Below, piece by piece: positions 55,812 through 59,889 of a stretch of DNA of 64,000 bases. Each line of letters begins with the position of its first letter. Position 1 is the stretch's first letter. The notes beneath the pieces are model-generated. The model did not search any database and had not been told where the DNA came from. It worked only from the letters and a program-made list of their open reading frames with translations. The stretch is from assembly GCA_029233985.1 (NCBI GenBank), contig JARGOK010000001.1:63581-127580 (forward strand), in the 5' to 3' direction. A program made the position numbers and the translations under genes. The DNA is from Candidatus Altimarinota bacterium (lineage in GTDB: Bacteria; Patescibacteriota; Gracilibacteria; JAUYGZ01).

Positions 55812-58493
55812 TTACAACTGTTCTAACTGCTCCTGACATTTTTTCAAACTCTCGCGTGATGTCGCCAATCGCTCTTTTTCTGCAGCTACCACTTGTTCGG
55901 GGGCATTCTTGGCGAACTTTTCATTACTGAGTTTAGCATCCAATTTTTGAATGTAATCCTCAAGTTTTGCAATTTCCTTTGTCAGGCGCTCTTTTTCCTT
56001 GTCAGCATCTACCATACCAGCGAGTGGTATGTGGATTTCAAGACCTTCAACGAATTTTGAAGTGGATCCTTCTGGAGCCTCACCGCTTTCTTTTACCGTG
56101 AGAGACTCGAGTCGCCCGAGGAACTCGATGATGGATGCATTGTCTGAAATCAATTGATGGTGTTCTTTACTCACAATTTCAGCCTCAATTTTTTTGGCGG
56201 GCTCTACCTGGTATTCCGCTCTGAGGTTTCGGATCACAGAAATCGATTCACGGATGAGTTCGAATTGCTTGTTTGTCTTGTCGCCTGAGAATCCCTGGAT
56301 TGTTGGCCACTCAGCAGATATCAGCATGCCTTCTTTAGCTACGTGTTTCCACAGCTCTTCGGTCACGTATGGTGTGAATGGATGCCAGAGCTTAAGGAGC
56401 GTTTTGAGAATATACATGAGGATTTGATCCGTTGACTGAACGAGAGACTCGTCCTGCTTTTGAACCTTTGTGATCTCGATATACCAATCCGCAAGGTCAT
56501 TCCAAGTAAAAGCATAAAGATTTTCTGCAGCTTGGGAGAATTTGTACTCGGCAATGTCCTTCGAGGTCGACTCAGATATTTCCTGGAGACGACTGAGGAT
56601 CCATTTGTCTGCCAAGGTCTTTGGCTCAACTTTCGGTCCCCCTTTTAAGAGGCTAGGGGTCTCTTCCACAGATATCAGGACATACCGCGCTACGTTCCAG
56701 AGTTTATTGACGAAATTTCGGTACCCGGCAATTTTTTCATCGTAGAGCCGACTGTCGTTTCCTGGTGAAGAGCCGACGAAGAGTGAGAGTCGAAGAGCAT
56801 CTGCACCGTACTTGTCGATCACATCCAAAGGATTGATACAGGTTTCTGGATTGGACTTGCTCATTTTCTTTCCTTCTCGTGTCCGAATAAGTCCATGCAA
56901 GTAGACTTTTTCAAAAGGCACCTGCCCGGTCATGTAGGTCGTCATGAGGATCATCCTGGCCACCCAAAAGAAGAGAATATCGTATCCTGTTTCGAGGACC
57001 TGAGTCGGGTGAAAAGTTTTGAAGTCGTCGTGTCCATCAATCCATTTGAGAGGAGAGAAGGTAAAAAGACCAGCAGAAAACCACGTATCGAGCGTATCTG
57101 AATCTCGTGTCCATCCTTCTCCGGGCGAGTCTTCTTGAACTTTTACGTCGTCCATGTCCGAGTCGTTGATCCACACTGGAATTTGATGTCCCCACCAGAG
57201 TTGCCGGGAAATACACCAGTCGCGAAGGTTGTCGATCCATTGAAAGTAGGTTTTGTTGAATCGGTCGGGGATGATCTCGATTTGTTGGTCGCGAACCACG
57301 TGTTGCATCACTTCTTTGAGTGAGTAAGCCCGTCCTTTTTCCAGCTGGAGACCTTCGTGATCCCATGAGTCTACTGGGTGATTGACATCGATAAACCATT
57401 GCTTTGAGACGAGTGGTTGAATGGGTGTTTTGCATCGAGAACAGACTGAAAGGTTTTGAGGAATGTCTTCAACATTCGACATGAGTCCAGCTGCCTCGAG
57501 GTCCTGGGCAACCGCTTTTTTTGCTGCTTCAACCTCCATACCTGCATATTTGCCAATACCTTTGGCGATGGTTCCATCTTCCATAATGACCTGAATCCTT
57601 TCAAGTCCGTGATTCTTTGCCATTTCATCATCCACAATACTGTGGTTTGGAGTGACACCGAGAGCACCAGTTCCAAATTTCATATCAATGTGTTCATCAC
57701 CTATCACAGCTAATTTAAGTTTTTGCCCGAGAAAATTGGCTTCTAGGGTATTACCAATGAGGTGCTTGTAGCGCTTGTCTTCAGGATTTACCGCTACACC
57801 TGTATCTCCTAATTTTGTCTCAGGACGAGTCGTGGAGATTTCAAAAGGGAAATCCTTGTCGTACTTGAACGTGTAAAGCTTGGCAGTCGTCTCTTGATAA
57901 TCCACTTCATCATCCGAAATAGTGGACTGACATCGGGTACACCAGTTTACAATTCTATTTCCTCGATAAATAAGTCCATCCGTGAACATTTTTTTGAAGG
58001 TGGTAAAGACGGTCTTACTCAAGCTTTCGTCGAGGGAGTAGTATTCCCGTGACCAGTCACAGGAAGATCCCATTTTTCTTGTTTGGTTTCGAATAGTGTT
58101 TTGTGATCCTGCTACGAATTCTTCGATCATCTTGATAAAGGTTTCTCGACCGTAGTCGTGCCGGGTCTTACCTTCTTTTTCCATCACGTCTTTTTCTACT
58201 TTGTTTTGAGTCGCAATCCCAGCGTGGTCTGTCCCAGGTACCCAGAGTGTAGGGTGACCTTTCATCCGGTGAAAACGAATCATGATATCCTCAAGAGCGA
58301 GCATCACAGAATGTCCTAAATGGAGCGTTCCCGTTGCATTCGGAGGCGGCATGGTGATCACGAAAGGTTTTTTATCGGACTCCATATTTGGCTCAAAAAC
58401 ACCTGATTCTTCCCACATTTTGTAGAGGGCATCTTCGTAGTCTTTGGCAACGTAAGCTTTGGGGAGTTCATTTTTTTGAGTCTTGTCGGACAT
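55812..58493 (-). CDS. valS: Valyl-tRNA synthetase
   Basis: Charges tRNA-Val. Seen: PPPNATGTLHLGHS (HIGH motif as HLGH, 58-61), GTDHAGIATQ, ISTTRPETKLGDTGVAVNPE in the editing domain, IPVWIND, GYDILFFWVARMI, the KMSKS signature at 543-547, then the anticodon-binding domain and a C-terminal coiled coil (about 820-893). Length 893 aa is full size. One short in-frame palindromic element sits between the catalytic core and the anticodon-binding domain (ETPSLLKGGPKVEP). Expression is controlled by a valine attenuator upstream. Confidence 0.97.
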   Translation of the reverse strand: MSDKTQKNELPKAYVAKDYEDALYKMWEESGVFEPNMESDKKPFVITMPPPNATGTLHLGHSVMLALEDIMIRFHRMKGHPTLWVPGTDHAGIATQNKVEKDVMEKEGKTRHDYGRETFIKMIEEFVAGSQNTIRNQTRKMGSSCDWSREYYSLDESLSKTVFTTFKKMFTDGLIYRGNRIVNWCTRCQSTISDDEVDYQETTAKLYTFKYDKDFPFEISTTRPETKLGDTGVAVNPEDKRYKHLIGNTLEANFLGQKLKLAVIGDEHIDMKFGTGALGVTPNHSIVDDEMAKNHGLERIQVIMEDGTIAKGIGKYAGMEVEAAKKAVAQDLEAAGLMSNVEDIPQNLSVCSRCKTPIQPLVSKQWFIDVNHPVDSWDHEGLQLEKGRAYSLKEVMQHVVRDQQIEIIPDRFNKTYFQWIDNLRDWCISRQLWWGHQIPVWINDSDMDDVKVQEDSPGEGWTRDSDTLDTWFSAGLFTFSPLKWIDGHDDFKTFHPTQVLETGYDILFFWVARMILMTTYMTGQVPFEKVYLHGLIRTREGKKMSKSNPETCINPLDVIDKYGADALRLSLFVGSSPGNDSRLYDEKIAGYRNFVNKLWNVARYVLISVEETPSLLKGGPKVEPKTLADKWILSRLQEISESTSKDIAEYKFSQAAENLYAFTWNDLADWYIEITKVQKQDESLVQSTDQILMYILKTLLKLWHPFTPYVTEELWKHVAKEGMLISAEWPTIQGFSGDKTNKQFELIRESISVIRNLRAEYQVEPAKKIEAEIVSKEHHQLISDNASIIEFLGRLESLTVKESGEAPEGSTSKFVEGLEIHIPLAGMVDADKEKERLTKEIAKLEDYIQKLDAKLSNEKFAKNAPEQVVAAEKERLATSRESLKKCQEQLEQL
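56635..56667. repeat. Family A element inside valS
   Basis: On the minus strand it reads GACCCCTAGCCTCTTAAAAG then GGGGACCG, closely matching the left half of the doublet at 21.67 kb. It is read in frame in a linker of ValRS. Confidence 0.65.
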
Positions 58494-58563
58494 GAGGAGA
58501 GGAAGGTTATGAAAGTAAACGTATTGTAGTGGGTTTGCCTGGAGAGATCAAAGTTTGAATAAT

Positions 58564-58683
58564 AAAAAAACCGTCTGGGTGACGGCCTCTGTGAAATCAT
58601 TTTTCGAAGAGCGTCCCCTAGACAAGAGTTTTCTTTTGGACGACGACGACAGTTTGAAAAGATTTCATAGTAATTTATAACAC
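58564..58683 (-). promoter_or_regulatory. Valine attenuator of valS
   Basis: The leader of about 190 nt holds a Val-rich leader peptide, then two exclusive helices. Antiterminator: GACGCTCT (58615-58608) with AGAG and CGTC (58590-58587, 58584-58581; two-base bulge). Terminator: CCGTC (58585-58581), loop ACCCA, GACGG (58575-58571), then TTTTTTT (58570-58564). The CGTC bases are shared. A ribosome finishing at the stop codon would cover the antiterminator arm; one stalled at the valine codons would leave it free. This is the classical attenuation design. Confidence 0.85.
58618..58668 (-). CDS. valS leader peptide, 16 aa
   Basis: MKSFQTVVVVQKKTLV then TAG. Five of sixteen residues are Val, with codons 7-10 being four consecutive GTC. 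The start lies about 15 bases after the predicted transcript start. The stop lies 2 bases before the antiterminator arm. Too short for normal gene calling. Its only likely role is to sense charged tRNA-Val. Confidence 0.8.
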   Translation of the reverse strand: MKSFQTVVVVQKKTLV

Positions 58684-58689
58684 CTTTCA

Positions 58690-58717
58690 AGTATACTATT
58701 GAGGTAATGAAAGTCAA
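58690..58717 (-). promoter_or_regulatory. Promoter of the valS leader
   Basis: Minus strand: TTGACT (58717-58712), 16 bases, TATACT (58695-58690). Start near 58683. tsaD begins 15 bases beyond, on the other strand. Confidence 0.7.
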
Positions 58718-58731
58718 TTATTCCCTTTATA

Positions 58732-59889
58732 ATGCGGATTCTCGCCATCGAAACATCTTGTGATGAAACAGCCTGTGCCATTGTAGAAAATGGATGGAAA
58801 GTGCATGCCAATGTGATTGCGTCATCGCTAGATCTCCACAAAAAAACTGGTGGAGTAGTACCAGAAGTAGCAGCACGGGCACATGTGGAGGCGATCATGC
58901 CGGTGATTTCATCCGCGATGAAAGAAGCACAAAATCCAAAATCCAAAATTCAAAAAAGTATTGCTAAGGTGGCCAAGCTTTTGAATTTTGAATTTTGTGC
59001 TTTGGATTTTGAGAGCATTGATGCCATTGCAGTAACTGTAGAACCCGGTCTCCAAACCTCTCTCCTGGTCGGTATCGAGACTGCCAAGTGGCTCTCATAT
59101 TTATGGAAGAAACCCTTGATTGAAGTGAATCATATTCGAGGACATGTGTATGCGAACTGGCTAGAGAGAGACCCAAAAAAAGAGCCCATTCAGTTTCCCG
59201 TGATGTGCCTGAGTGTCTCAGGCGGACACAATGAACTGATCCTGATGCGAAGCCATGATGATTGGGAAGTGGTGGGGGAATCGCAGGATGATGCGGCTGG
59301 AGAGGCTTTTGATAAGGTAGCGAGGATTTTGGGATTGGGGTATCCGGGAGGACCGGTGATAGAGGCTATGGCTGAGAAGAAAACCCCGACTTCTTTTAAA
59401 AGGGGAATAGCCCCGTGTGATGATGGGGAGGAGGTGCTTGGTTCCCCTTGTAAGGGATTCGAGGTCAAAGAGGGGAAGGCGTTAAAATTCCCTCGAGCCT
59501 GGCTCAACCAAAACCGATCAAATAAATGGGATGGAACGTCGTATAATTTTTCTTTTTCAGGATTGAAATCAGAGGTCTTGAGAGAAGTACAGAGAAGAGG
59601 AGAGCTCACCGAGGAAGATCAGAAAGAAATTGCTGCTGCCTTTCAAGAAGCGGTGTGTGAAGTCCTGGTGACGAAGCTGATAGGGGCTGCGAAGAAGTAT
59701 GAAGTGAAGGAAATACATCTGGCAGGAGGGGTGAGTGCAAACAAATATCTCCGAAATATGATTCAAGATTCCCTCCCAACCGAAGGCGAGGATGGTCTTC
59801 CTCGCCTAAGGGTCCGATGGCCTAAGAAAATGGAATACTGCACGGATAATGCGGCGATGATTGGGGCTGCTGGGTTTTTCAAAAAATAA
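58732..59889 (+). CDS. tsaD: tRNA N6-threonylcarbamoyltransferase TsaD, with in-frame repeat inserts
   Basis: Transfers the threonylcarbamoyl group to A37 of tRNAs reading ANN codons, as part of the TsaB-D-E complex. Seen: ILAIETSCDETACAIVE, GGVVPEVAARAHVE, VNHIRGHVYANW with the metal-binding histidines, MCLSVSGGHNELILM, GLGYPGGPVIEAMAEK, KFPRAWL, YNFSFSGLKSEVL, LAGGVSANKYLR and CTDNAAMIGAAG. At 385 aa it is about 45 residues longer than usual. The excess falls in three places (residues about 67-93, 218-246 and 350-359), each translated from a palindromic repeat. The reading frame is intact and all core motifs remain. Confidence 0.96.
   Translation: MRILAIETSCDETACAIVENGWKVHANVIASSLDLHKKTGGVVPEVAARAHVEAIMPVISSAMKEAQNPKSKIQKSIAKVAKLLNFEFCALDFESIDAIAVTVEPGLQTSLLVGIETAKWLSYLWKKPLIEVNHIRGHVYANWLERDPKKEPIQFPVMCLSVSGGHNELILMRSHDDWEVVGESQDDAAGEAFDKVARILGLGYPGGPVIEAMAEKKTPTSFKRGIAPCDDGEEVLGSPCKGFEVKEGKALKFPRAWLNQNRSNKWDGTSYNFSFSGLKSEVLREVQRRGELTEEDQKEIAAAFQEAVCEVLVTKLIGAAKKYEVKEIHLAGGVSANKYLRNMIQDSLPTEGEDGLPRLRVRWPKKMEYCTDNAAMIGAAGFFKK
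58928..59012 (+). repeat. Family C palindrome inside tsaD
   Basis: GCACAAAATCCAAAATCCAA at the left and TTTTGAATTTTGAATTTTGT with GCTTTGGATTTTG at the right are inverted copies around a 22-base centre. It adds about 27 residues between AMKEA and ESIDAIAV, which are contiguous in ordinary TsaD proteins. Confidence 0.8.
59383..59470 (+). repeat. Family A doublet inside tsaD
   Basis: CTTCTTTTAAAAGGGGAATA at the left and GGTTCCCCTTGTAAGGGATT at the right, the same order and spacing type as the doublet at 21.67-21.77 kb. It adds about 28 residues between MAEKK and KFPRAWL. Confidence 0.8.
59784..59807 (+). repeat. Family G palindrome inside tsaD
   Basis: AGGCGAGGA, loop TGGTCT, TCCTCGCCT, a perfect 9-bp stem. 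It is translated as EGEDGLPRL in a loop before the conserved CTDNAAMI motif. The same arms occur between genes at 36889-36912. Confidence 0.75.

Follow-up and report, generated by a model that had tools for sequence, protein, structure and literature searches.

Background

Leader-peptide attenuators of aminoacyl-tRNA synthetase operons are known for pheST in gamma-proteobacteria and for trpS and leuS in Streptomyces (PMC1262725). The element described here resembles them in having a short cognate leader ORF, mutually exclusive antiterminator and terminator structures and a synthetase gene downstream. However, its target is valS, its host is a member of Patescibacteria (CPR) without Shine-Dalgarno usage, and it shows no sequence relationship to those systems. 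In Bacillus, histidine leader peptides take the place of T-boxes in front of hisS* and hisZ; the authors of that report, noting that leader peptides had earlier been shown only in Proteobacteria and Actinobacteria, suggest convergent origin or transfer (PMC2965389). The Bacillus case is similar to ours in that a T-box and a leader peptide are exchanged on the same synthetase family, but here it is thrS that shows the exchange, inside a single Patescibacteria class, and the leaders of one genome also serve valS, hisS, pheA and ilvB. T-box riboswitches (RF00230) control the same genes in response to the same signal, tRNA charging, and are found before valS and thrS in other Patescibacteria, whereas the valS element lacks the T-box sequence, stem I and specifier loop and would use the ribosome as its sensor.

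Our literature search, which mostly did not extend to subscription papers, found no leader-peptide attenuator in Patescibacteria or on valS. It is possible that a valS leader has been predicted elsewhere, for example by Lopatovskaya et al. 2010 (cited in PMC4833913), who reportedly dealt with attenuation in amino acid and aminoacyl-tRNA operons. The mechanism considered here, classical ribosome-mediated attenuation, is a known one; the target valS and the host group Patescibacteria/CPR appear to be new.

Organization of the valS leader region

The window (the whole analysed stretch of 64,000 nucleotides) is part of a 1.66-Mb host genome assembled in five contigs. The leader region sits between valS and its divergent neighbour tsaD (58732-59889), the latter named from its sequence without a family search. 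All components of the original prediction, namely the promoter, a 16-codon ORF with four GTC codons, the antiterminator and the terminator, were found in place, on the minus strand:

58690..58717, minus strand: promoter-like TTGACT-16-TATACT that would drive the leader (10/12 consensus matches)
58618..58668, minus strand: leader ORF MKSFQTVVVVQKKTLV*, 16 codons, ATG start and TAG stop (from the sequence)
58639..58650, minus strand: Val run of four consecutive GTC codons; a ribosome at any of the four suppresses the terminator in the folding test
58638..58642, minus strand: arm 1, CGTCC within the Val run, complementary to GGACG at 58616-58612 (from the sequence)
58608..58617, minus strand: arm 2, the 5' arm of the antiterminator, with its core GACGCTCT at 58615-58608 (from the sequence and folding)
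58577..58590, minus strand: arm 3, AGAGGCCGTC(A)CCC, the 3' arm of the antiterminator and, via CCGTC, also the 5' arm of the terminator (from folding)
58564..58590, minus strand: intrinsic terminator, CCGTC-ACCCA-GACGG with flanking pairs and T7 (terminator scan)
58523..58551, minus strand: possible second promoter TTGATC-17-TACAAT between the terminator and valS (9/12 consensus matches)
55812..58493, minus strand: valS, valyl-tRNA synthetase of 893 aa, the presumed regulated gene (Pfam; NCBIfam valine--tRNA ligase above cut-off)

Both Pfam and NCBIfam thus bear out valS as the downstream gene. Named matches of its product at 42-55% identity are mostly from Patescibacteria, e.g. Uhrbacteria, Magasanikbacteria and Falkowbacteria. 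TGA is a sense codon in valS and thrS of same-class families, which suggests a position on the Gracilibacteria side of the CPR; there is no in-frame TGA in valS of the window genome.

The promoter-like hexamers, TTGACT (58717-58712) and TATACT (58695-58690), are separated by 16 nt. The leader ORF reads ATG AAA TCT TTT CAA ACT GTC GTC GTC GTC CAA AAG AAA ACT CTT GTC TAG. It has no Shine-Dalgarno sequence, which is no objection, because the host genome hardly uses one: a Shine-Dalgarno-like 4-mer precedes 4% of ATG-start ORFs against a background of 15% and is therefore avoided. The stop codon (58620-58618) is followed by GGGACGCTCT, then AGAGGCCGTCACCCAGACGG and then seven T ending at 58564. 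The antiterminator core GACGCTCT begins 2 nt past the stop, as had been predicted, and pairs with AGAG-GC-CGTC (58590-58581) in a helix of 8 bp with a 2-nt bulge, which RNAfold lengthens by GGG:CCC and GTCT:AGAC. The terminator has 10 pairs, four of them G-C, in the terminator scan; its core of just five strong base pairs counts against an attenuator. It lies between the leader ORF and valS, the arrangement that characterizes leader-peptide attenuators. No Rfam family matches the window at gathering score.

Folding and statistical tests

For the folding test, the RNA was folded from the edge of a ribosome with its A site at a chosen codon. With the ribosome at each of the four GTC codons of the run, mean terminator pairing was 0.00; it rose to 6.6 at the isolated GTC that directly precedes the stop and to 6.8 at the stop itself. 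The terminator is thus restored with the ribosome at the stop codon, where it would cover arm 2. In silico, the antiterminator and the terminator are therefore mutually exclusive and selected by ribosome position. In the absence of a ribosome, the fold from the leader ATG favours the terminator, and the default state of valS would thus be off. As a control, 147 unselected pairs of a short ORF and a terminator from the host genome were treated in the same way, and one switched like the valS leader.

Taken singly, the promoter hexamers and the terminator are weak evidence, since shuffling a 600-nt region produces each of them about once or less. Their combined arrangement is not due to chance, as judged from Val enrichment in the leader ORF (p=7e-5; of the 20 amino acids only Val passes), from the folding z of -3.4 for 58564-58637 and from shuffling of the spacer. 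In the latter, suppression was obtained in 12/300 shuffles and the full switch, suppression plus restoration, in 6/300, which makes the valS element by itself only moderately significant.

Other leaders in the host genome

A scan of all contigs found 93 intrinsic terminators preceding ORFs of at least 200 aa. Four further genes of the host genome, identified by Pfam and NCBIfam, have cognate leaders; each leader has a terminator behind it and switches on folding:

L185:7331-9118: thrS, leader MNTVSTTSTTTTTLLSPEVV with eight Thr in eleven residues
L160:15533-16840: hisS, leader MIQKLSHHHSHFIHLI
L152:18242-19228: pheA (chorismate mutase/prephenate dehydratase), Phe leader MNTPLYSFGTFFYFSF
L205:12920-14668: ilvB, Val/Ile/Leu leader MNASFVILVNVVGIPLN

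When amino-acid genes with upstream terminators were tested for a cognate label, 6/11 passed against 0.45 expected (P=7e-7); this gene list was compiled after the scan, and one of the six passes, the Met case, does not switch on folding. That candidate, MNQTLNTIIMMMSSTICLKR, precedes a homocysteine S-methyltransferase gene (L157, upstream of 4046, minus strand). Similarly, the leader MKNTIIIIDL precedes thrC (L203, upstream of 5860) and looks cognate for Ile. We do not claim either of them because folding gives no switch. The Asn/Asp-rich leader MHSNNDININDSN with a terminator before aspS (L200, upstream of 18044) switches only partly; it would sense Asn more than Asp, and asnS is also present in the genome. 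Terminators without a cognate leader were found upstream of pheT, ileS and cysS.

Two further observations concern genes mentioned above. The ORF behind the Ile-rich leader (L203:5860-7680) encodes threonine synthase with a fused C-terminal portion that matches 2-isopropylmalate synthase and resembles a regulatory domain; this fusion suggests isoleucine feedback. The IleRS ORF (L183:8389-12879) is 1496 aa long and has a histidine phosphatase domain (PF00300) inserted before the anticodon-binding domain; ORFs of relatives are about as long (1464 and 1476 aa).

Distribution among relatives

A Val leader was absent from all of the other valS upstream regions examined, about 190 drawn from three partially overlapping sets (63 from the class, 77 usable from named genomes and 64 from across the phylum). 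The original prediction had named the lack of the Val codons or of either helix in related genomes as grounds for rejection, and for valS this is, formally, what was observed: in the two comparable family members, G001 and G002, the Val run and the terminator are absent, the tsaD-valS arrangement is kept, and ValRS of G001 is 73% identical to that of the host. The valS element is a singleton with no ortholog to align and so draws no support from covariation. T-box sequences precede valS in other Patescibacteria (L126 and L131; the motif also occurs in L411). In G001, a 33-codon Val/Leu/Ile-rich ORF ending in ILVVLIVLFVFLSL (L010:1403-1504) overlaps the valS start (TTTATGA); no terminator accompanies it, and the overlap may reflect translational coupling.

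In place of valS covariation, it is the pheA leader that supports such a mechanism in this lineage, being conserved in all three family members, the host, G001 (MNASNNNWFYFYFFSA) and G002 (MSISKAFYSFYFWNFSA). All three have terminators and the same switch despite diverged peptides and stems. The GAGAAG/CTTCTC arms are invariant; further in, both strands of the antiterminator helix have changed between genomes and remain paired in the predicted structures, a comparison of three sequences read from the folds rather than a formal covariation count.

Across the class, thrS has a Thr leader in six genomes of the class set (families f1, f3, f6 and f17) and in an additional f6 genome. His leaders occur before hisS in families f18 and f23, and ilvB of family f7 is preceded by Val/Leu leaders. 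When 179 class upstream regions were screened for each of the 20 amino acids, 9/10 hits were cognate: thrS gave T six times and one other residue (Y), hisS gave only H (twice) and valS only V (once). Twelve class genomes, mainly of family f10, have T-box motifs before thrS (L269, L272, L276, L278, L279, L282, L305, L307, L310, L316, L318 and L321); these score below the Rfam gathering score where the Rfam search covered them. On thrS, the class makes interchangeable use of leaders and T-boxes. The patchy distribution of leaders is as expected for short elements that are easily gained and lost. Contrary to the impression in the original prediction that such an attenuator is unusual in a CPR bacterium, the valS leader is not an isolated case.

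Discussion

Based on these results, the region very probably is a ribosome-mediated (leader-peptide) transcription attenuator of valS, as originally predicted: the in silico switch falls exactly at the Val codons, and the four sister leaders switch as well. RNA polymerase would start at the promoter near 58690, with a ribosome translating the 16-codon leader behind it. If Val-tRNA is plentiful, the ribosome would reach the TAG and cover arm 2 (GACGCTCT), leaving arm 3 and arm 4 (CCGTC:GACGG) to form the terminator, and most transcripts would end near 58564. If Val-tRNA is scarce, the ribosome would wait some 30 nt further upstream, at the GTC run; GACGCTCT would then pair with AGAGGCCGTC, the terminator would be blocked and valS transcribed. 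Such a scheme presumes that the leader is translated, that transcription and translation are coupled in the host and that the element responds to Val-tRNA charging.

The opposite reading, an unlikely one in our estimate, is that a spurious Val-rich short ORF happens to precede an ordinary terminator and that the promoter-like site at 58551-58523 drives valS. That site, if real, would bypass the attenuator, although about one promoter-like site is expected by chance in the valS upstream region. The absence of the element from every relative examined points in the same direction, as do the shuffles in which a random spacer suppresses the terminator or switches fully. On the other hand, coincidence would have to account for Val being the sole enriched amino acid and the one that matches the gene, for the fact that four more cognate leaders of the host switch alike and for the near absence of non-cognate hits in the 179 upstream regions. 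Nor does the terminator have an obvious other job, since no gene ends on the minus strand upstream of it, tsaD being divergent.

Even if the terminator is genuinely regulatory, the short ORF might be incidental to it and the control exerted by a T-box, a riboswitch or a protein that binds the RNA, for instance ValRS itself. The T-boxes before valS in other Patescibacteria make this conceivable, but the lack of any Rfam family at gathering score, the lack of a match to RF00230, with its T-box sequence and stem I, anywhere in the host genome at E<=0.001 and a leader that, at about 100 nt, could not accommodate a T-box with its stem I render it highly improbable, all the more so as ribosome position alone suffices for switching in the folding test. 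Finally, the leader could work mainly through translation, by ribosome loading or re-initiation for valS, rather than through transcription termination. Leader ORFs near a gene may, according to one proposal, increase initiation through re-initiation (PMC4833913), and the ORF overlapping the valS start in G001 has no terminator. In the window, however, 124 nt separate the leader stop from the valS start (58618 to 58493), with a T7-tailed hairpin between them, and the cognate leaders of relatives also carry terminators; we regard control through translation as extremely unlikely. Transcription attenuation by the leader peptide remains our preferred reading.

It is tempting to go further and to speculate that in this Patescibacteria class of nearly Shine-Dalgarno-free genomes T-boxes have repeatedly been replaced by independently invented leader-peptide attenuators. 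In the host, the resulting regulon would comprise valS, thrS, hisS, pheA and ilvB; aspS, thrC and a methionine-synthesis gene, with their Asn/Asp, Ile and Met leaders, might also belong to it. We put this broader scenario forward tentatively, as rather less probable than not.

The reduced genomes of CPR bacteria are often assumed to be poor in regulation. The set of leader attenuators indicates that at least some of these bacteria would have transcription coupled to translation and would use the ribosome alone to sense tRNA charging, and it predicts that leaders without a Shine-Dalgarno sequence are translated. It would extend attenuation from Proteobacteria, Actinobacteria and some Firmicutes, where the literature consulted places it, to CPR, adding valS and thrS as targets. 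Moreover, a class in which a T-box and a leader peptide are exchanged on the same gene offers an opportunity to study the turnover between them.
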